This document shows, piece by piece, positions 26,925 to 49,479 of a stretch of DNA of 64,000 bases; position 1 is the first letter of the stretch, and each line of letters starts with the position of its first letter. The DNA is taken from NCBI RefSeq assembly GCF_028583425.1, contig NC_072806.1:31108001-31172000 (forward strand), written 5' to 3'. The notes below the pieces were generated by a model. The model was not told the origin of the DNA and made no database searches. It saw only the letters and a program-made list of their open reading frames with translations. The position numbers were made by a program, and so were the translations under genes. The stretch is from Eublepharis macularius (taxonomy: Eukaryota > Chordata > Lepidosauria > Squamata > Eublepharidae).

Positions 26925-27656
26925 GAAGAGTCCAGTAGCACCTTTAAGACTAACCAATTTTATTGTAGCATAAGCTTTCGAGAATCAAGTTCTCTTCGTC
27001 AAATGCATGATACAAACTGGTCAAATACAGAAGAGGAGGAGGGAAAGGGGAGAGAAGGGGACATATATCAGAAGGGGACAAGATGCAATTAGCGGGGAGG
27101 CAACCAAAACATTCCTTTGCTAGTAAATGTAAACATCTCCTTTTGGTGTGGAGTCAGTTTGCCGTGTTAGTTTGCAGCAGTATAAGCATCCAATTCCTAT
27201 GTAGTATAAGCCTTCGATAACCACAGCTCTCCCTGCCAGATGCATCTGACAAAGAGAACTGTGGTCCCCAAAAGCCCATACCAGGCGCCACTGGGCTCCC
27301 CCAAACCACACCGCTGTAAAGGAAATCTGTTACCTGTGATAATGTGATAACCATTCATAGTTTCTATTCAGTCCCAGCTTGACAGAGTCAAATTTGCATA
27401 TGAATTCCAATTCAGCAGCCTCCCGTTGGATTTTGGGAAGGAAGCCCTTGAGAGATTTCATCAGGACTTCAATAACTTTCACCCTACTATCAACCTAAGC
27501 CTGGACCACTCTACACAACAGGTACACTTCCTGGACACCACTGTACAACTACATAATGGACGAATAAATACCACCTTATACCGGAAACCAACAGACCGAT
27601 ACTCATATCTACGTGCCTCCAGCTACCACCCTAAACACAAATGGAAGCCAGTATAA
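26925..27656. mobile_element. Penelope-like element remnant with terminal repeats and RT end
   Basis: The left part (26925-27010, reverse) carries the terminal repeat AGTCCAGTAGCACCTTTAAG...AAGCTTTCGAGAA. Further repeat pieces in both directions lie at 27160-27300. Bases 27426-27656 encode a piece of reverse-transcriptase sequence typical of Penelope-like elements (FLDTTVQLHNGRINTTLYRK, then PTDRYSYL). It is an old, incomplete copy. Confidence 0.65.
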
Positions 27657-30002: not shown

Positions 30003-30557
30003 GGTGGAGGTTTTTCTCCATGTTATTAGCAACCTTAAGTGCAGCTTTTCTTGGGTGGGAGGAGAGGGAATAAAAAGAAGCAGGGTTGTTGGGAGTGGAT
30101 AGGTTAGCGAGAGGAGAGAAATTCGTGGGGCATGTGATTTTTGAAGAGTACTTGAGGAATGGGATATTGAGGGGAGTTTAATATTGGGGAAGGGGTAATG
30201 AGGAGAGTGAGACCGAGGTGAAAGCCCTTTATGGGAGGGTTTGGGGGCGGGGAAGAAGAGCAATATAAGGGGGATCGAGAAGCCCTCCATTTTAAGGATG
30301 AAGCAACTCTTGTGAGGTATCTCCTCAGGGCAGGAATGACAACTCCGGGAGTGCGGCAGATAACTGAAGGGAAAGGGGATAATTGATACAAGGTTTCATG
30401 ACTGGACAACAGAAGGCAGAGATACTGAAAGGGAGTAATATGTGGGAGGAAAGTTACTGAGGTAACAGGACAATTCATGTATGGGGGCTGGGGTGGTAGG
30501 GGAGAAGCACTAGGGAAAGGAAGGGATACCAAGAGGAAAACGGGATTAATGGGGGGG

Positions 30558-30758
30558 CTCTGACCTGGATAGCCCAAGTGAGCCTGATCTCATCAGATCT
30601 CAGAAGCTAAGCAGGTTTGGCCTTGGTTAGTAGTTGGATGGGAGACCTCCAACAAAGACCAGGGTTGCAGAGGCAGGCAATGGTAAACCACCTTTGATAG
30701 GCTCATGCCATGAAAACCCCACCAGAGGTTGCTATATGTCAGTTATGACTTGAAGGTA
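30558..30758 (+). mobile_element. 5S-rRNA-derived SINE
   Basis: It contains TGAGCCTGATCTCATCAGAT, AGCTAAGCAGGTTTGGCCTT and GTTGGATGGGAGACC. The tail is diverged (CCACCAGAGGTTGCTATATG). It sits 0.2 kb before the LIAT1 coding exon region. Confidence 0.76.
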
Positions 30759-38333: not shown

Positions 38334-41300
38334 CTGTTTGGGGATGATAAGAGGCAGGTAGCAAGATGGTTAGCATCTTTTATTGCTAAAGGCTTCAAAC
38401 TACATAATTACTCAAAACATTTCTCCTACATCTTTCACGAATGTTGCTTAACTGCAGGGCTTTTTTTCAACTGGAACGCAGTGGAACAGAGTTCCGGCAC
38501 CTCTTGAAAATGGTCACATGGCTGGTGGTCCTGCCCCCTGATCTCCAGACAGAGGGGAGTTTAGATTGCCTTCCACGCCATGTGGCGCGGAGGGCAATCT
38601 AAACTCTCCTCTGTCTGGAGATCAGGGGGCGGGACCACCAGCCATGTGACATTTTTCATTGAGGGTGATTTAAACTTTAAAAAACTCCCCCCTTGTTCCA
38701 GCTGACCCAAAGTGACGTCATTGTGCGGTCCTAAGTTCCACCACCTCTTTTCCCAGAAAAAAGACCTGCTTAACCGAATGATTAATTTAATCTGTTCAGT
38801 CCCAGCCCTACGATTCTATCTCACCTTCAACTTACTCCTACAAAGCAGAGTTAACGACCTTGCAATGTCCCAGCTCACCAGATGTTTATTCAACCTACAG
38901 TTTAAATTTGAATGCTTCCTACCACCCCCAATAACCAATCTACTTTTTTACAACACAGAAGTCTGTTTTAAATACCGACTTGAATCTGTAACTTAAAACC
39001 CATTTCCTCTTCAGCCTGCGACAGGAAACAGTTTTCCTTCTTTACCACCAGGCTTATGTGCATTTCAGCCTCTTTTCGCTGACTGCTGGACACACAACTG
39101 TATCAATGTTTTAATAGGCAGCGTTGTAACTTGTCGATGTTTCTATTCACACGGGAGAGGTACTCGGATCCCTATTGTTATGTGCTCCCCAATTCTCTGG
39201 GCACTGAGAAGATGAGTGGGAAATACTGAGGTTTCCGGAGCAATCCTACACAGTTACTCCAAGCAAAGCGTGCCACTGAATCTTGATAACTGACAGCCGG
39301 TATGGTGGTTAAGAGGGCCAGATTATCCAGGTCCCTGCTTCAATTCTCACTCTGCCGTGCAAAAGCTTTCTGGGTGACCTTGGGCCAGTTGCACTCTTTC
39401 AGGCGAATCCAACCTCACAGTATTGTTGTGAGAATATCATGAGAAAGAGAGAAACATTGTGCCACTCTGAGCTCCGTGGAAGCAGGATGGAATAAAGACG
39501 TACTAGAAAAGCACAGAATCTTGGGTTGGAACCATCAGTTTTATACAAACTGTGTGATTAATTACAAATGCCAAACAGAATTTTGAATTTGCATCCAGTA
39601 GCTCCTTAGAGACCAACTAGATTTCCAGGGTGTGAGCTTTCGAGAGCTAAAGCTCCCTTTGTGTGACTCTCAAAAGCTCACACCCTGGAAATCTAGTTGG
39701 TCTCTAAGGTCTGCTTCCCACCAGGTAATTAACTGATGGTTGTTGTGGATTTTCTGGGCTGTATCGCCGTGGTCTTGGCATTGTAGTTCCTGATGTTTCG
39801 CCAGCAGCTGTGACTGGCATCTTCAGAGGTGTAGCACCGAAAGACAGAGATCTCTCAGTGTCACAGTGTGGAAAAGATGTAGGTCATTTGTATCTACTCA
39901 GGAGGGGTGGGTTTGGGCTGAGTCATCCTGTAAGAGTTTCCCAGGGCGTGGAATGCTAATGGCGGGAGGCTTCACTGTATCCTGAGGAGGTTCTTTTGCA
40001 TATGGATTGGTACTTGATGTGCTCATCTTCTCTGCAGGGCTATTGTCGGGGACTTGGAAACTGATGGGAATTTCAAAAGTAGCTCCGGAGATCTAATTCT
40101 CTCTTTTATTTTCAAATGGCTGCAGTGTTACTGACAAGCTAGCAAGCCCCAAGGTCCAGGGGAAAAAGGTTGCAGATCCACCTCTTGTCAACTGCTTACC
40201 TAACTGCCATGTAAGCTTGGCAAGGTGATCAGTTTCTAGACACACATATACCATGACCAAGGGTAAGCAGTCAGCCCGGCCTCCACCATTTTAATAGCAG
40301 TTTTTATATGACTGCTCATGATATTAAAAGTATACAAGCCTCTGGGGTTTAAAATGGCTGCAGCACAGCCACCAGCGAGCCCTTGCCGTTGTCAGATCCC
40401 GCCCTGGAGAACCAGGCATGTAAGGAACGCCTCATTGGAATGCAGAGGTATTGTGATGCAACTGGTCTCCCTATCCACTCAAGCTCCAGAAGGCCGAGAG
40501 CAATAAAGGTCTCACAGAGTCACCCCCACTTAGCACATTCCTTTCTCTCCTCCCGTGATGAGATCTCCTGTCTATGATTGAGGAGCTAAACAAATGACAT
40601 TCACAAGCATGTACAGTCGTTCTTGGCACAATGCACCTCCTCCCTAAAAACACTTAACCTAGCTCTGGTGTACTTCATCAGAAAACTATTCCTTTGTGCA
40701 AGCGCTGGAACACACTTTGCATTTGCTTTCACACACCTGGCAGCCATTGCCCAGAGCCATCAAACCTTTTATCCAACCCAGGAACTAACCACTGGAGTCT
40801 TTGTCCTAACTGCTAGGAGGACTCTCCTCCACCTCAGGGCACATTTTACCTATAAAGGTGGGCTCTGGGCTCATTCAAATCGTGCAAGCTTTCTGGCTTC
40901 TCCCTTAGGGTCACTTCCCCAAGCTTCTTGCTTTCTTGGCAGAGGATGCTGGCGTTCGAAGCTACTCTCTTCCTCCATAGACTGGACCCCTTCTCCAGGA
41001 TAGGTCGATATAATCACTCCCTCTGGCTCTATACCCAACTCTCTGGCTGTATTTCCTAGGACTCTGTGTGTGTCGTTATTTCCCCCCAGTAATTGGTGTG
41101 TATGTGCATGAAGTTCTGTTCTTTAATAAAAGTTACTGATTGATTTGAAGCACCAGACTCGCTTGGCTTGTTGGGATTGGGACCCAGTAGACACAGGTGA
41201 TTCGATTCCAGTTACCGCCTCTCGTATAGCCGTCCTCCTTGCTAGCTAATTCCCCCATAAAATCATATTTATGCAAGGAGACCACTTCAGGTAACACAAG

Positions 41301-44300
41301 AGCCACTGCCTTCCCAACCTGACAGGCCTTCATGAAATTGGTTTTCATGTCAGTGGGATGTATCTTTGTGAATCATCTTGTAATCTTTAATCTGCAGTTC
41401 AATGCAAAACCATCAAAATATGTTGTTTCAGCAAATATCCTGTCTTGGGAAGACCTATTGGTCTTTCACACACAGCTGTAAAACACCAGCAATATTTACC
41501 TTATATCCTTGGGAGGTAAAGGGTCAAACTCCACTCCTTCACCAAATGACAGAAGACACAACCGTGAAGTGCATCCCGGAGGCGGAGGGTTAGGAGAGGA
41601 AGAGTTCTGCAAAAGCCCAAAAGCAAAGAACAACTGGATCACTGCAGACAACATACTGGCCAGGGTGAAACAGAAAACATGAAGGGGACCAGGGCAGGGA
41701 TCGGGGAGAAAAGGCAGAAATGAAAGCAAAGCCAGGGTCTCTTGCAGGTGCCAGCCTGTACAGGGGCGAAATCAACAGCAGCACGTACACGGGCTTTCTC
41801 TGTGGTGGCCCCTACCCTATGGAACGGTCTGCTTGAGGAGGTCAGGAGATCCCCCCACACACACTCCTGGCTTTCCGCAAACAATGCAAAACTGAATTAT
41901 TCAAAAAGGCCTTTTTCTCAGCTAAGAGGGCGGTATTGTAGGAAAGGGATCCCAGATGTTTCGCTAATGAGTTAGAAACCATAGATTTCACCACTACGTT
42001 GCCTTACATATTATCTGTTGCTTTAAATATGTACTCCTATATCCTACCTGTGCTTTATGTTGTTTAATGTCAGTCCTAGAATTGATTATGTTCTGTTTCA
42101 GCAATTCCTCAACCCCATACTGGATCCTTGCTAATGCTATGTCTTTGTAAACTTGTATTCATTTACCCTATGACATTGTTTATGGTAACGTTCTTAACAT
42201 TGTATCTCACACTATGTAATCCACCTTGAGTCTCAGTGAGAAAGGCAGACTATAAATGACATAAATAAATAAATATCGCTTAAAAAGTACTCAATGATAT
42301 CACAATTGCAAGCACTATTCCTGTTAGTGACAACAGGAGAATATAAAGGTGCCGGCAGCCATATTTACTCAGAAGTTGAGTCATTTCACACATTATGTGA
42401 AGCAAATCTGAACTTGCAAATGAGCGAATGCTCAAAGCGCTATGGCCAGCCCCACGTGCTTGCAGAACGTCTCCGTGTGACACGCTTTGGTCCTCTTGTA
42501 CACACCATCAAAAAGGATGCTTGAAACGGCCCAAAGGACACCAATTTCAATGGTGTCCTTTATACTCTTTTATGCACCCGTACTTCAGCCGACCCTGTAA
42601 GGTCAATCATAAACTTTTCTTTTTTTGAGGCTGAAAAACTCCCCCAGCAATTTGCTGAAAGCCATGAAGTGAGATTGCGGTCGAACAGAAGCATAACTCA
42701 GATTTAACTTTTTGGACAGATGCAATTACCACAGAGCTGCAACAGCAGCTCCTGTCCTGGTAGAGGACTGGAACAAATTCTAGACCGCCCCCTCACCATC
42801 CGCTGAATCTGACCCAGTCTTCCAAGTTGCACAGAAGCCACCTTTAATCTTTGTTCTTGCTGCAACCAAGGAGTCAGTAATATCTTGGGGGGGGGGGAGC
42901 ATTTGTCTAATGCCCATCTAAACCCAGCTCCTAAAACCTGCAATTCCATCCCTGAACCGCTCCACATAAATGAAGCAGCTGGTGGATTAGCAATAGCCAT
43001 TGCTTGCCTTGCCGCTCCCTTCCCCACCCGTGCCACCGCCCCCTCTGGCCATCTCCTCCACCTGTTGCCTTGCATGTCAAGGGCAAGCTCTAGCTTGGGG
43101 CCCTGATCCTTAACAGCCACAGCTCTTAGGAGCCACAGCTGTGCCCCTCTGCGCTCCATATTGCTCACTCTACGAGGAGTGTTGACTGGTGACCCCCACC
43201 CAACACCCTGATGGCACTGTCACCAATGAATGTGGGTCAAGGTATTTTTAGCAGCTGCCAGACTCCGAAGATTTGGAGTAGGATCTGGGACAACAGCTCA
43301 GGACCAGAAGGGTGGGGGGGAATAAAGGACAAAGAGCCATTTGGTCTGCAAAGCAAAATATCCCTTTTCCCCTAAACATGAGTAAGCAAACAAGTAATTT
43401 ATTTTTGTGCCCCGTTCTTCTTAATCTCCATTGAGTTTCATAGGAGGATACGGACAGGGTGAAGTTCCTGCTAACCTGATTACCCTTAAGATTGGGTATA
43501 ACGAGTGTCAGTGACAGGGGAATTCTCCCCTGCCTTTGGACTGCACCTGCGAACTCTGATATCCAAACCATGGGACCTACTACAGATTCATTAATGTATT
43601 AATGAGTGAATCTGTAGACTAATCTGGAGTGGCACCAGTTAGTCAAGAGAGCCAACAAGTAAAAGAAGACTCTCAAAACTGCCCCAGTCTACTATATGTG
43701 CTCAAAAGGAAGACAACGCCGAATATAAAGGGGGGAAATTTATACCAAAAAAATGTTGCTGGATATAACTATAACTTATATGCAAATGTAAGACGACTCC
43801 CTTCTTTTTCTTCTTGTTTTGATGGCATAACTGGGAAAGAAACGCTAATCTTGCATTTGAGGAAATACAGTATATCTGATGGTGGACAGCGTTATTTATG
43901 GGACAAAGCCCCAGGCCTTCAGTTAACAGGCTTCTCCATCCATCTGCCCACCTCAGAGTCTCTCTACACAAGACATCTTACACGAGTAGGATCAAGTCAA
44001 AGATTTTACACTTGTTCTCCCATTGTGGATACATGTGCACTGCTAGGGGGACGGGGTACCCTTGATCTTGAGAATAAGATTACACAGAAAGTAAGTCACT
44101 TGAGCGTCCCCATGTAAGATGTCTTGTGTAAAGAGACTCTCCGGCTCCTGTCCTAGCATATGTGAGGGTAGGACGGGGCATAATCGCTACCCAGCCAAGG
44201 TGATCCTGCGAGCCACAACAACTGCCAGCATGAGTAACTACTAACAGGATACTACTGGGCTGAGGAGCTGTTGGAAGGGACGCCCAGAAGTGCTGCTACA

Positions 44301-45824
44301 CCCCAAATCCCAGGAGAGCATTTGGGAAGATGGAAACAGGCATATTTGGCATGCAGCAAGGCCTCACAGTCCCCCTCCTCAAGATCACACACTTTTCTTG
44401 GGCGGTGGGTGTGAAATATGCCAATATGCTTAGTCACAAGCTGTCTTTTCGGAAGGACACCCAGAGGTGCCTCCTGATCCCACCCTGGATAACACTTAGA
44501 AGAAAGGTGGAGGTAAGAATCACCTTTTTTTTAGGGAAAGAGTGTCCCACTGAAGCACGGGGAGCTGCATGGGCCAACCCCTTCCATTGTAGCCCAACAA
44601 CATCCCGCACAATAGCTACAAGAGGTAACTAGCCCAACATGAGGACTAGCCTTGAGTAAGACTTCAGCAGGGCAAACTTTTTGAGCCCCTGGTTCCAACC
44701 CCATCTCTGCCACATACGCTCACTCGCTGGCTGTAGGCAAAGGACTCTCAGCCTCACCTCTAACCGCAATGAAGTCATTTCGGCCTACCTTACAGGGCTG
44801 TTGCATAGGATCACATATACGGGAAGTGCTTAGAGGTTCTGCAGAAATAATAAACTTACTTTCTGATTATCCTGCGCGGCATAAGATAGATCAAGATGCG
44901 TAGCCGTGTTAGTCTGCCTGTAGCACTAGAAAAGAACAAGAGTCCAGGAGCATCTATAAGGCTAACTAAATTTGTGGTAGTCTTCAAGATATTAGGACAG
45001 ACGGACTCACATTCTAGCTGTATCTGAAGAAGTGAGCTGCGGTTCACCAAAGCTCATACCCGACCACAAATTTTGTTAATCTTATAGGTGCTACTGGACT
45101 CTTGGCTCTTTTCTATTGCGTGGCATAAGGATTCCAAACGGGGCACTGGCCAAAGGCTGCTCCGTCCTGCCGAATCTGTGCCTGCCACGCACCTGTCAAG
45201 GGGACAGCCAAAAGTAAAGGCGAGACCAATGCCCAGCCCGAGACCTTGGCTGATTCCGCACATGTTGGATAATGCACTTCCAATCCTCTTTAGAGATCAT
45301 TTGGAACTGAATTTTTCTTGTGTGAAACAGAAAATCCACTTCCAAACGATTGCTAAAGTGCATGGAAAGCGTGTTATCCAACGTGTGCGGAGTCAGCAAT
45401 CCCCACGCTAAAGATCCTCATTAAACGCGGCAGAAGCGCGGGGCTGGAGGGGGGGGGCGTTCCTACGAGGCAGGCGCGCTCTCGGCCCGGGCAGCCTTTC
45501 CCCAGCCATTTGCCAGCCTTCCACCGGCGCACCCCTGCAGGATAAGCGGGCCGGCGCGCTAATCCGGGTCGCGCTTCCCCGGCTACACGTGCCCCAACTC
45601 ACCCCGTCTGGAGCCTTACTAGCTGCCGCCGCCCCGGCCGGCTCCGGCTCCGGCTCCGGCAGCCCGTTGGCGAGTCCCCGCTCGGAGCCGCCGGCCGCGG
45701 GCAGCCAGTTGGCGGGGCTGGGGCTGGGCGGCAGGCCGGAATCCGGGCTATCGAGCGGCCGCTCGGCGCGCCGCTTGGCGTCGGGCAAATCCGGCACCTC
45801 CTGCAAGCTGAGCCGCCCCACCAT
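38003..45824 (-). CDS. RFLNB: RFLNB (refilin B / FAM101B), complete gene, three coding exons
   Basis: The joined exons 45824-45603, 41606-41500 and 38333-38003 give 660 bases, that is 219 residues plus TGA, against about 214 in human RFLNB as I recall it. All junctions keep GT/AG and phase. The N-terminus MVGRLSLQEVPDLPD followed by DSPDSGLPPSPSP matches refilin B. The middle exon carries the family core SFGEGVEFDPLPPK. The last exon carries VKYDSEKHF, CSQTVICVP, STTIVYPKHTKTVYTTTLDY and RRFLSSVELE. Refilins bind filamins and organise perinuclear actin bundles; they act in skeletal development and epithelial-mesenchymal transition (family knowledge). The DSG-x-x-x-S stretch resembles a phosphodegron, fitting the reported short life of refilins. 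RFLNB is convergent with LIAT1 and lies downstream of VPS53 in the same orientation. The conserved C-terminal block makes RFLNB rather than RFLNA the best match; synteny agrees. Confidence 0.95.
38455..38768 (+). mobile_element. hAT-type miniature element, family A, in RFLNB intron 2
   Basis: The termini are CAGGGCTTTTTTTCAAC and GAAAAAAGACCTG, with flanks CTTAACTG and CTTAACCG (7 of 8). It sits about 120 bases from the acceptor of the last RFLNB exon. Confidence 0.83.
39294..39503 (+). mobile_element. tRNA-derived SINE in RFLNB intron 2
   Basis: GTATGGTGGTTAAGAGGGCC (A box), GCTTCAATTCTCAC (B box), GGTGACCTTGGGCCAGTTGC and TATTGTTGTGAGAATA place it in the same family as the copies at 59731 and 63909. 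Confidence 0.65.
39594..40080 (-). mobile_element. Penelope-like remnants (two kinds) in RFLNB intron 2
   Basis: Bases 39594-39712 hold an inverted pair of CCAGTAGCTCCTTAGAGACC-type repeats. Bases 39735-40080 hold a second terminal-repeat type, on the minus strand, with the hammerhead-like segment at 39789-39829. The repeat GGTTGTTGTGGATTTTCTGG is its characteristic end. Confidence 0.6.
39789..39829 (-). ncRNA. Hammerhead-ribozyme-like core in Penelope-like repeat
   Basis: On the minus strand: CCT | CTGAAGA | stem II GCCAG/CTGGC | GAAA | CA | TC | AGG. The CCT/AGG arms give a short stem I and stem III is almost absent, the layout reported for Penelope-like hammerheads. The conserved CUGANGA and GAAA boxes are intact. 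Confidence 0.55.
41500..41606 (-). CDS. RFLNB: RFLNB coding exon 2
   Basis: This 107-base exon follows the acceptor CTTTTGCAG and ends before the donor GTAAAT. It enters in phase 0 and leaves with two bases of an Arg codon. It encodes NSSSPNPPPPGCTSRLCLL followed by the refilin core SFGEGVEFDPLPPKDI. A LINE 3' end lies about 0.1 kb upstream in the intron (41725-42275). Confidence 0.93.
41725..42275 (+). mobile_element. LINE 3' end (L2/CR1-like) in RFLNB intron 1
   Basis: The coding tail is visible as AFSVVAPTLWNGLLEEVRRS (about 41795-41855). The same 3'UTR as copies 1 and 2 follows, ending ACTATAAATGACATAAATAA. Confidence 0.65.
43958..44144. mobile_element. Small foldback element with GAGTCTCTCTACACAAGACA ends
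   Basis: The left end GAGTCTCTCTACACAAGACA and the right end TGTCTTGTGTAAAGAGACTC pair over about 30 bp (extended by TCTTACA/TGTAAGA). It lies in RFLNB intron 1 and is noncoding. Confidence 0.55.
44890..45115 (+). mobile_element. Penelope-like terminal repeat remnant in RFLNB intron 1
   Basis: This block carries the conserved tail TATAGGTGCTACTGGACTCT and a hammerhead-like core at 45020-45059. An inverted, more diverged piece (AGAGTCCAGGAGCATCTATA-like) lies at 44930-44990. Confidence 0.6.
45020..45059 (+). ncRNA. Hammerhead-like core with compensatory stem I
   Basis: GTAT | CTGAAGA | stem II GTGAGC/GTTCAC | CAAA | GC | TC | ATAC. Stem I is GTAT/ATAC, a paired change from GCAT/ATGC in the other copies. 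The first base of GAAA is C, so this copy is probably inactive. Confidence 0.45.
45249..45397. mobile_element. Short foldback element upstream-intronic in RFLNB
   Basis: The ends GCTGATTCCGCACATGTTGG and CCAACGTGTGCGGAGTCAGC pair, followed by AATGCACTT/AAGTGCATGG-type inner arms. It lies about 200 bases into RFLNB intron 1. The GATTCCGCAC motif is shared with 32935-33087. Confidence 0.55.
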
Positions 45825-46030
45825 CGCGCCCCGAGCGCAGCCCAGCGCCGCTCTGCGCGCCCGACCAGCCCGGGCTCTTGGGGCGGCTGGACCCGCCTCC
45901 GGCGCCTCCTCCGGCGCCGCCCCCGGGCTGGCCCGCCGCTAGCAGAGGAGTCCGGGGCGGGGGTCTGCGCAAAGGACCGGAATCCGCTTGCTCGAACGCA
46001 AGACGATTGAAGAGCCTGAGCTTGGTTCGG
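45430..46030 (-). promoter_or_regulatory. RFLNB: CpG island promoter of RFLNB
   Basis: A GC-rich, CpG-dense block covers RFLNB exon 1 and about 200 bases upstream of its ATG. It contains several GGGCGG/CCGCCC-type boxes and no clear TATA box. The transcription start should lie just above 45824, but the exact site cannot be read from sequence. Confidence 0.7.
45603..45824 (-). CDS. RFLNB: RFLNB coding exon 1
   Basis: This exon encodes residues 1-74, from the ATG at 45824 to GAC GGG before the donor GTGAGT (phase 0). It begins MVGRLSLQEV, then DSPDSGLPPSPSP at residues 25-37. A Glu/Pro alternating run (PEPEPEP) and an Ala-rich tail follow; that tail is low-complexity and differs from mammals. 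The exon lies in a CpG island. Confidence 0.93.
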
Positions 46031-46039
46031 GCGTCTCTC

Positions 46040-48760
46040 GAACCCCGGCATGAAACTAGAGCTGAAGGGGATGTGTGGAATGGAGCGCGTTCTCTTGCCA
46101 GGGAGCCCAGAGCAGCATGCAGAGACGCAGAAGGCAGCCTCCTCTGGAGCTGGGTCGTCCCAGGGCGCCTTCTACATCAGCTTCTTTCCCCGTGTTTTAT
46201 GCAGTATGAATTTGTCAGGTCTGCCAACCAACATTGCTTCCTGTCAGTCTATTGATTGATATACATGTGAACGCTGCTGCTACAGAGACTTATTCACGTA
46301 CATTTTTTCCAAAATGGGGTGTACATTTTCCTGAATGCAATTTTTTCACACCCCAAAGGACTAGGCATAAGTGACTTACATGTGCCTTAAAGGATCCCTT
46401 CTCCTCAGCAGAGACTCAAGCAGAGATGCAACAGATAGGATAATTCTCCAAGCTTAGCCAATCACACCCATTACAGTGGTAGAATTAACTACCCCATTTA
46501 TGCAGAGACATTGCAGGCACCCTCCTTTGTGACTGGCTCTTTTGGCCTTCAACTATTCATTTTTATTTCTTGGGGCAATCCTTGCAGCATGCTAGCCTGT
46601 CACATTTTTACCTTTCTGCCCTAGGTGCTCAGGGCAGCATACATGATCCCACCATTTTCCATTTTTATCCTCACAACAACCCTGGAAGGTAGGTATGGAA
46701 CTAACACATTATACCCTTCTTGGCTGATTGGGGAGCTCAACTCGTTTCCCTTCCATTACGGCACTTTATAGTTCATGCTTTGAGATGAAGAACATGGAGT
46801 TCCCCTCCTTCTGGCAGCTTCCCCCCTGCTTCTGAGACTCATTTATTAAAAGACTTGAGATGGGGCGGGAGGGAAGCCCGTCTCTTTCTGCTCCACTTCA
46901 GGAGTGACACTTGCTTGAAGGGAAGCAATTGGGAGCATTCACAAACGAAAACCAGGCCTGCCAAACCATACTGGTGGGGTGGGGGCTGCTGGAAATTCAC
47001 ACTTTGGGGGTGAATCACAGAACTCTCGACTCAGCAGACCTATCTGGGAAAGAGAATTTTTAAAAGGTCAAACAGCTTTTCAAGGAATGCAGTGCCTACT
47101 GACAGGCGGGAGGGAGGGTTTCCCATAAAGCTGGTAGAACAGACCCCTGCGGCTCCGATCCAGAGTTCCTGAGCTATTTATAGGCCCTGAGTAAGAGAAA
47201 GGAGACTATCCAGCAGAGGCTCCCCTCCGCTGAACTGCTGGCTAATTTCCACTCAGTACTGGCGCTTCAGGCCTCAGCTCCAGAAACGGCTTGCAGCAGC
47301 AGAGCTTGGCTTTGGAAGAGGCAATGAGAAGAACAGAACGTTTGTTCCTGAACAGGCTGTAGCTAGTGGTGGAGAGAACCTGCTTTATGTACCAAAGGAC
47401 CGGTGTTCAACCACCAGCATCGCCATTTTAAAAAAACTTGCGCTGCAAGGCGAGAAAGACAACGCAAAGCTTCCCCCCTCACTTCGGTATGCTCTGAATC
47501 TTTACGGAGCATACCGAAGCGATCTTTACAGAGCATACCGAAGCGATTGAAATACCTGAATCCAAAGTGGCTTTCAGCTTGGGGTTTTGGGTAATTCATT
47601 TTCCTGCTTCGGGTTAACCTAAATCAGGAAACCTGAATTTATGGGGGGTGCACAACCCTAGTTCCATGTAGCCATTATGGCCCTATAAAAAGCTTGAAAA
47701 TTACCCCTGGGTAATTACCCCTGGCTGTTTTTTTTTCTACCTGTGAAGATTTTCTTTCCAGCACGTTAATGTAAATTGTTTATCACTAGGAAAGGCAGCC
47801 TCAGAGCTCAGGCCACCTCATAAGCAGACCCTGCACTTGACCTGCATGCTATGCCGCTAACAGAAGTGGCCTCCTGTTTCCATGACAAACCCTATCGGCG
47901 TCCAATCAAAGATAATTAATTGGGTGACTGTACAGATTCATTGGCTCTTTGCACCTTCCACCCACCATCGCCAATAGTTTCGAGTAAACAGAGGTGTGCC
48001 TTTTTCACCATCAGATGGAAGCAACATGGCCAAAGTAGTACCGTGATGTTTGCTCTAATAGCTGAGCCATTTGCCAAGGCGATAAAACAGAGGCGTAGCT
48101 TGGGGGCCGTCCTGGGTGAATCACGCAAGGTGTACATTTTTACCTTGCATACCAAAGTACATTCTGAGGCTTGGGTGTGTGAGTGCAACACTAAAGTAGC
48201 ACATGGTGCTCTGCCCCCCCCCCACACACACACGCCACCGCAGCTGCTGTGGTACATTTCAACCCATTGAGAACAGATTGCAGTCCAGTTGTTATTTTTT
48301 CAAGCGTAGCTTTAACCAAAAGAATGAGCCACTGCTTGGCTTTTCAAAGTGTCAGGCAGGCCCCTGCGGTGGAAATCAATTCTGCAAGCAACAGGCAGCA
48401 AAGAGCCTCTGATGTGCAGTTGTAGAAGGGGCAAAAATGGCAAAGTAATTTTGGTTTTCCAGCAGGTGTGGGGGGGTGATTACCAGCATGCCCCTATTTT
48501 TCACTGTTAAACATTGGAGTATATGACAAAAGGGTCTGGTTGGTACCAGGAGAAGCACTGAGATCTCCACAACAACAACTAGATGCTGCTGCCGGTGGTG
48601 TTCACTTACCATAGGTATGGATGCACTGCGTGGTACTTCCGTACAACATGCTCTTTTAACTCATGCCAATTCAGCTGCATCTCCCATACTGGGCTCTCCA
48701 TTTTCCTTTTCTACTAAAAAAGGTTTCCACAATGCTGATTGACCTTTCTAATCCAGAAGA
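46040..48760. other. RFLNB-VPS53 interval, no gene recognised
   Basis: Intergenic sequence with short frames only. A small tandem motif TACGGAGCATACCGAAGCGA / CAGAGCATACCGAAGCGAT occurs at about 47500-47550. Confidence 0.4.
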
Positions 48761-48794
48761 GTTAGCCGTTTTAGTCTGTAGCTGCAAAATAATG

Positions 48795-48968
48795 AAGAGA
48801 CCAGTAGCACCTTTAAGACTAACCAACTATATTGACGCATAAGCTTTCGAGAACCACAGCTCTCTTCATCAGATGCAGGAAATGCATCAGATGAAGGGAG
48901 CTGTGGTTCTTGAAAGCTTATGCTTCAATAAAGTTGGTTAGTCTTAAAGGTGCTACTGGACTCTTGAC
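48795..48968. mobile_element. Penelope-like terminal repeats in head-to-head inverted order
   Basis: A minus-strand copy (48795-48876) and a plus-strand copy (about 48888-48968) of the AGTCCAGTAGCACCTTTAAG repeat meet at GATGCAGGAAATGCATC. Each carries a hammerhead-like core; that of the minus-strand copy (48837-48876) has CTGATGA and GAAA intact. Confidence 0.7.
48837..48876 (-). ncRNA. Hammerhead-ribozyme-like core
   Basis: GCAT | CTGATGA | stem II GAGA/TCTC with a GCTGTGGT loop | GAAA | GC | TT | ATGC. All conserved core bases are present on the minus strand. Confidence 0.5.
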
Positions 48969-48969
48969 G

Positions 48970-49197
48970 AGGGTTGCCAGCTCCAAGTTGGGAAATTCCT
49001 GGAGATCTGGGGGGTGAAACCTGGAGAAATCTGGAGAAAGTGGGGTTTGAGGAGGGAAAGGACCTTGTCATAGCATAATTCCATAGAGTCCACCCCCAAA
49101 AGTAGCCATTTTCTCCAGGTGAACTGATCTCTCTGGCCTGGAGACCAGTTGTAATTCCAGCAGATCTCCAGCCACTACCTGGAGGCTAGCAACCCTA
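48970..49197. mobile_element. AGGGTTGCC foldback element
   Basis: The ends AGGGTTGCCAGCTCC and GGAGGCTAGCAACCCT pair. It lies between two Penelope-like inverted fragments. Confidence 0.6.
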
Positions 49198-49240
49198 CTC
49201 TTGACTATTTTGCAAACTTTCTAATGTCACTGCTGGGAAA

Positions 49241-49465
49241 ATCAAAAAGAGTCCAGTAGCACCTTTAAGACTAACCAATTTTATTATAGCATAAGCTTTC
49301 GAGAATCAAGTTCTCTTCGTCAGATGCCTGATCAGGCATCTGACGAAGAGAACTTGATTCTCGAAAGCTTATGCTATAATAAAATTGGTTAGTCTTAAAG
49401 GTGCTACTGGACTCTTTTTGATTTTGCTACTACAGACTAACACGGCTAACTTCTCTGGATCTATG
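49241..49465. mobile_element. Penelope-like inverted terminal repeat insertion with 12-bp target duplication
   Basis: A perfect 94-bp inverted repeat spans 49238-49331 / 49332-49425, followed by TACTACAGACTAACACGGCT. The flanks ACTGCTGGGAAA at 49229-49240 and 49466-49477 are identical. Each arm has CTGACGA and GAAA around a GAGAA/TTCTC stem, and the 3' end reads TTAGTCTTAAAGGTGCTACT. Confidence 0.8.
49336..49374 (+). ncRNA. Hammerhead-ribozyme-like core (mirrored at 49289-49327, minus)
   Basis: GCAT | CTGACGA | stem II GAGAA/TTCTC | GAAA | GC | TT | ATGC. Stem I is GCAT/ATGC. The other arm of the perfect inverted repeat carries the same motif on the minus strand. Confidence 0.5.
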
Positions 49466-49479
49466 ACTGCTGGGAAAGA

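Follow-up and report, generated by a model that had tools for sequence, protein, structure and literature searches.

The window analysed here, a stretch of 64,000 nucleotides (nt) of the Eublepharis macularius genome (C17:31108001-31172000), contains repeats with segments resembling hammerhead ribozymes. These raise the question of whether the segments are hammerheads of Penelope-like elements (PLEs), and whether the RNA of the element is cut by the ribozyme ahead of insertion. Cervera and de la Pena in 2014 and Luense et al. in 2017 reportedly described minimal type I hammerheads in PLEs. The genome searched comprises 2.24 Gb in 72 contigs. Taken together, the results make it highly probable that hammerhead motifs of type I, with a minimal stem III, lie in the pseudo-long terminal repeats (pseudo-LTRs) of at least three Penelope-like families, and that the palindromes formed by these repeats each derive from one insertion, in which the RNA template was probably uncleaved.

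Hammerhead cores of the window

The cores were searched with a descriptor consisting of stem I, CTGANGA, stem II, GAAA, NN, UH and the second strand of stem I, with a spacer of 0 or 1 base allowed before stem II. The strict descriptor detected 4 cores in the window, spanning 49335-49375 (+), 49288-49328 (-), 48836-48877 (-), and 39789-39829 (-), and 0 in 100 first-order Markov simulations of the window, which are not exact shuffles. Three cores are of type A and intact. The one at 49336-49374 (+) is located in the right arm of a palindrome (49.3k palindrome) and the one at 49288-49328 (-), with 5 stem I pairs, in its left arm, while the core at 48837-48876 (-) belongs to the left arm of a second palindrome (48.8k palindrome). 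The fourth, at 39789-39829 (-), is of type C and also intact; an ATG overlaps with its A9, with the U spacer and with the first stem II base.

A covariance model built from 23 A and B copies (R1), 2 of them window copies that match by construction, gave six strong matches in the window, of 52-64 bits, and three weaker ones with E of at most 0.0022. Of the six, two are members of the model itself, and another has the same sequence as one of these two. The intact A-type cores scored 61.8 bits (49336-49374), 61.8 bits (matched at 49289-49327), and 63.8 bits (48837-48876). The other strong matches are an A-type hammerhead in the right arm of the 48.8k palindrome, at 48884-48923 (+), damaged by a change of U4 to A (CAGATGA; 52.4 bits), an A-type hammerhead at 26968-27006 (-) with C3 changed to U (55.6 bits), and a B-type hammerhead at 45020-45059 (+) with a broken G12 (CAAA; 53.8 bits). 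The weaker matches correspond to a decayed head-to-head pair at 27204-27243 (-) and 27242-27281 (+), with 22.7 and 38.1 bits, and to a D-type half-motif at 39630-39669, which holds parts of a related motif (21.4 bits). The first-pass annotation had fitted four segments to one plan, which holds for 49336-49374, 48837-48876, and 39789-39829, and fails for 45020-45059, where G12 is C. It had also named two distinct repeat types; at least three were found (A at 48.8k and 49.3k, B at 45.0k, and C at 39.8k), in addition to a D-type palindrome at 39604-39709. The intact core at 49288-49328 (-) and the damaged ones at 48884-48923 (+), 26968-27006 (-), and 27204-27281 were absent from it, 26968-27006 being outside the span it had covered.

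In all 4 descriptor cores stem II has 5 or 6 pairs, and a single unpaired base (A in type A, U in type C) separates it from CTGANGA; the direct joining of stem II to CUGANGA expected of a hammerhead is present in none of them. Stem III consists of one A-U pair closing 2 nt, and, judged by sequence, a longer stem III could form only in a dimer, via AGCU or ACGU. The stem III strand reads AGCU in type A and ACAU in the window C copy; most other C copies have ACGU, according to a comparison of copies that presupposed the one-base spacer before stem II. Of these strands, AGCU and ACGU are self-complementary. The core is intact in 88 of 108 copies of type A, 5 of 19 of type B, and 60 of 85 of type C, counts in which overlapping and duplicated loci are retained. 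By sequence and predicted pairing, the window segments are type I hammerhead motifs with a one-pair stem III, and their self-cleavage is putative.

Comparison of the families revealed paired changes in the stems. Across A, B, and C, the share of stem cells that are paired was 0.926, versus 0.730 after shuffling, and 0 of 1000 shuffles were as high (81 distinct sequences); this test used fixed structural columns, and 13 of 94 distinct segments were dropped as chance matches outside the families. In the alignment of A and B (23 sequences), 26 cells had changes in both partners, a count that none of 500 shuffles reached, the covariation score was 0.324 vs 0.181, and pairing fell from 89% to 19-50% when the partner was slid by 1-3 columns. 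Families differ by paired changes at the second and third pairs of stem I and at pairs 2, 3, and 5 of stem II. At pair 2 of stem I, types A and B have A-U where C has C-G; at pair 3, type B has U-A where A and C have C-G. The alignment of R1 without structure (R2) scored the six strong window copies at 39-50 bits. Rows of alignments A1 (39 sequences) and A2 (23 sequences) were hand-chosen; A1 also contains the window's C copy and, for type C, one extra base at either end. A1, made with MAFFT and spanning the three families, was dropped in favour of the fixed columns and the A and B alignment, as stem II of type C was misplaced in it.

Several results weigh against the hammerhead reading. With Rfam, no hammerhead match was obtained at the gathering score over the whole window, nor up to E=10 over 10 kb and over two 71-nt pieces. 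The Rfam hammerhead covariance models, suggested as a check in the first-pass annotation, left the segments unmatched, so that the motif would not have passed the refutation test set there; we take this as a limit of those models and not of the motif, because R1, derived from copies of types A and B, gives six copies of the window such high scores. R1 itself gave no match to the window C copy at 39789. Within families, pairing was not above shuffles (as high in 154 of 1000 for A, 862 of 1000 for B, and 1000 of 1000 for C), and the A and B alignment holds 3 pairs changed on both sides, a number reached by 325 of 500 shuffles, and 8 pair types, reached by 439 of them. Moreover, with three families, the signal between families amounts to few independent changes. 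Changes on both sides of stem I had earlier been read as a trace of selection on an RNA fold, and such covariation is present between families and absent within any one family, where pairing stays at shuffle level. Since pairing within families does not exceed that of shuffles, the inserted copies give no sign of selection on the fold and, judged by their sequences, decay without visible constraint after insertion.

Penelope-like elements and their head-to-head insertions

Exact tails of these repeats are abundant genome-wide, with 48,719 of A or B type, 4,333 of a B-type form, and 38,542 of type C; reversed controls gave 0. An open reading frame (ORF) at locus L023 matched PF01541 GIY-YIG (E=1.3e-5) and ends ~330 nt upstream of an A-type motif, and an ORF adjoining a C-type copy at L067 matched PF00078 RVT_1 (E=1.6e-11). 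A C-type GIY-YIG sequence, VYIGTTKRS, was recognised in L067 by eye only, with no Pfam match. A reverse transcriptase (RT)-like ORF of type A (L022) matched no Pfam family, which counts against the assignment. The copies also possess the Penelope hallmark of inverted pseudo-LTRs, of which one arm bears a tail, flanked by target duplications. The GIY-YIG ORF beside an A copy, the RT ORF beside a C copy, and a C-type layout like that of PAc (Poseidon from Anolis carolinensis) bear out the earlier assignment to minimal-stem-III hammerheads of PLEs. On this sequence evidence the hammerheads belong to PLEs, which is a known association.

The 49.3k copy is a perfect head-to-head palindrome (49238-49425) with arms of 94+94 nt, no spacer, and the junction CCTGATCAGG. 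Its target-site duplication, ACTGCTGGGAAA, first recognised by eye, is located at 49229-49240 on the left and at 49466-49477 on the right, the insertion being 49241-49465. The 48.8k palindrome (48795-48965) is also head-to-head, with 83-nt arms, 93% complementary, and a 5-nt spacer; a probable target-site duplication of 9 nt, CTTTCTAAT, was seen by eye at 48744-48752 (left) and 49217-49225 (right). A later repeat at 48969-49196, with its own duplication ACTCTTGAC at 48960 and 49197, is nested in the short arm of this insertion. The B-type insertion at 44937-45104 has 42-nt arms, 88% complementary, a tail on the left arm only, and a probable duplication of 8 nt, GGCATAAG, seen by eye at 44878-44885 and 45122-45129 and occurring also once at 46364. 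The arms of the D-type palindrome, which includes the half-motif, are 43 nt long and 98% complementary. Rfam microRNA matches on the palindromes were all below the gathering score, probably derive from the long hairpins, and were rejected. The transcript of 49250-49415 is predicted to form one long hairpin of -144 kcal/mol with both cores buried, which speaks against ribozyme activity there. Because the transcript of this palindrome folds into one hairpin, the motifs at the window loci are probably inert. The window copies, most of them arms of head-to-head palindromes, are insertion products and probably not working units.

The anatomy of such pairs was followed in the genome with a sample of 60 young A loci, taken from 543 genome matches, of which 100 were listed; omitted from these 100 were the last 33, two situated at C1:249.0 Mb, and the first five, which come from the beginning of C1, where listed sites recur as near-copies. 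Twenty-six of the 60 loci are head-to-head, 23 continue for 52 nt or more beyond the cleavage site with no inverted partner, and 11 are solo. Flanks of 8-15 nt common to both sides of the unit were present at all 26 head-to-head loci, two of these duplications being of 8 nt only and some lying several bases off the inferred edge, and 4 of 650 cross-pairs shared at least 8 nt. Since the shared flanks surround the whole unit, a head-to-head pair appears to represent a single insertion. Among 100 copies listed from a different set, the exact matches from the cleavage base into the tail that are described below, neighbours within 5 kb were head-to-head in 26 cases, tail-to-tail in 0, and on the same strand in 2.

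The two arms of a pair are unequal. Eighteen pairs, including three of the window, were chosen by a seed without tail; in 17 of them one arm has a tail and the other has none, and in the remaining pair neither arm has one. At the 26 young loci, the shorter arm stops between tail positions 28 and 48. Comparison of the arms in 42 head-to-head pairs, at the diagnostic sites of the A type, flagged five pairs (L013, L056, L130, L140, and L145). Arms of different subfamilies are joined in L140 and L145, and the difference in L056 and L130 is at one diagnostic site only; L130, L140, and L145 are among the 26 young loci. Mixed arms were rejected as a general proof of two RNAs, two separate RNAs being shown for few pairs only. 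Regarding the junctions, GATGCATC was found at 366 sites of the genome and TGATCA at 122; these patterns and the two used below for joins near the cleavage site differ in length and subfamily, so that the counts are not strictly comparable. The junctions of L098, L099, L122, L130, L141, and L146 were obtained from end extension, as their partner loci share the palindrome. At L113 (C1:115084814-115085135), A-type arms are joined by an unrelated palindromic centre of ~38 nt; on either side, this centre begins at the predicted cleavage base.

Cleavage site, templates and the origin of the pairs

If the RNA were cut before reverse transcription, the copies should end at the cleavage site. Ends within 1 nt of the predicted site were found in 2 of 63 oriented arms (L113 and L128), and the whole motif was held in 46 of 63; the arms come from the 60 young loci, three of which were counted both ways, and extension was ungapped. 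Locus L147, listed at -2, is a small deletion and not an end, as the motif sequence is still present upstream. C-type ends were left out, since the C tail pattern includes the base before the cleavage site. In one subtype, 13,519 copies match exactly over a stretch that begins with the cleavage base and reaches into the tail, and in 11,631 of them (86%) the exact match continues through eight more bases across the site. Few ends at the cleavage site and this read-through indicate that templates were seldom cut, so most were probably uncut before reverse transcription; a re-ligated circular RNA may also serve as template and would read through the site too. A blunt join at the cleavage site, searched as a 26-base pattern, was found at 2 sites, and a looser, shorter pattern with 0-8 bases allowed at 67 sites, of which 50 were listed. 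The gap is 6 bases in 30 of these 50, with AAGCTT in all 10 whose letters were shown. In a natural reading, this suggests that complementary DNA (cDNA) ends tend to join at self-complementary stretches.

These observations lead to the following proposal. In the living element RNA, the motif would cleave, if at all, as a dimer or with the element protein, as the anatomy and the work on Anolis PAc lead us to infer. Both cut target strands would prime reverse transcription of uncleaved element RNA, with priming of the two strands starting at two different internal RNA sites. The two cDNA ends would then join, often at self-complementary stretches in or beside the hammerhead, leaving copies mostly 5'-truncated or paired, with the arms of palindromes made in one insertion. 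A more far-reaching version is offered tentatively: most insertions would be two cDNAs, each with its own start site, annealing at or beside an uncut hammerhead, and stem III would then mainly pair two RNAs per particle or act after insertion, and not trim the template.

Cutting of the element RNA by the hammerhead before insertion, setting most cDNA 5' ends, would account for the joins exactly at the cleavage base, of which there are 2 sites with the 26-base pattern and 5 among the 50 listed with the shorter one, a count that weighs against uncut templates, as well as for L113 and L128, which end within 1 nt. However, the unchanged continuation of 86% of the copies leaves at most 14% for cleavage ends and mutation together in the subtype counted, and we regard such cutting as quite improbable. 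A more radical alternative is that the hammerhead look is a chance or sequence-driven trait of abundant repeats that never had an RNA function. The silence of the Rfam models and the lack of covariation within families agree with it, whereas the empty simulations, a core recurring in three families with stems that differ by paired changes, and the in vitro activity of the protein-assisted hammerhead of an Anolis PLE, described in the consulted part of PMC11167929, make it scarcely credible.

The pairs might instead arise by self-priming (snap-back), as proposed in PMC3846280, in the part consulted, for rotifer Penelope on an antisense template, and not by priming from two strands. Many junctions are at palindromes, which snap-back needs too, and most young pairs have no haplotype difference between arms: in 23 of the 26 young head-to-head loci no diagnostic difference was flagged, which tells against two separate RNAs. 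A copied-back arm should nevertheless end with the first arm, yet nearly all compared pairs have a tail on one arm only, and L145 and L140 combine arms of different subfamilies. In addition, both target strands are cut and then extended by the PAc protein in vitro, and the stretch between its two start sites corresponds to the tail (PMC11167929, part consulted). Snap-back is therefore considered unlikely. Because of the unequal tails and the mixed-subfamily arms, our sequence comparison speaks for two cDNAs, each primed from one of the target strands, rather than for snap-back, and this is not proven as a general rule.

Neighbouring features and relation to known elements

Besides the PLE copies, the window contains a match to the 5S rRNA model at 30556-30675 (+) with 50.6 bits, which is presumably a 5S-derived short interspersed element and not a 5S gene. 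A CpG-rich segment at 45608-45822 (-) resembles, on the reverse strand, a first coding exon, with a possible resemblance to refilin. Plant microRNA models matched 45249-45397 below the gathering score, and this segment is probably an inverted-repeat element.

The repeats agree with the Penelope-like minimal type I hammerheads of PMC6155905 and PMC7761336, as far as the consulted parts go, in the core, the short or absent stem III, the site in pseudo-LTRs, thousands of dispersed copies, and a dimer-type anatomy; the families and the host are particular to this genome. Similar to the C type, PAc has an ATG in the core and an ORF running from stem II, and its tail is bounded by two reverse-transcription start sites, according to the sections of PMC11167929 drawn on here. 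In these sections, unprocessed RNA is the dominant template in vitro, no RNA-sequencing reads end at the cleavage site, and no start-site difference between the strands was seen. Unlike PAc, the A-type frame that spans the tail is interrupted by a stop within the motif (L135), and section 3 of that paper, in the part consulted, contains no genome-wide junction counts like these.

Rotifer Penelope (PMC3846280, part consulted) is alike in its head-to-head inverted pseudo-LTRs, junction palindromes, a tail optional on one of them, and short target duplications. Since inverted pseudo-LTRs with one tail and duplications have already been described there, the anatomy is known. The rotifer account differs in that it treats individual copies, reads them as self-priming, and does not use the word hammerhead in the text consulted. 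Here, in contrast, very many copies are available, few of them with mixed-subfamily arms, and the position of the hammerhead was compared with the junctions. A literature search, covering PMC11167929, PMC6155905, PMC7761336, PMC6466107, and PMC3846280 in part, found no count of PLE insertion ends versus the hammerhead site, and one may exist in print.

The first-pass find is right in substance and known in kind, and its interest lies in when the ribozyme acts. Tens of thousands of copies in one genome form a fossil record of insertion events, and comparing the ends of copies with the cleavage site makes the question of cutting testable from sequence alone. Templates that were mostly uncut agree with the in vitro result for Anolis, and point to a role of the hammerhead other than trimming of the 5' end.
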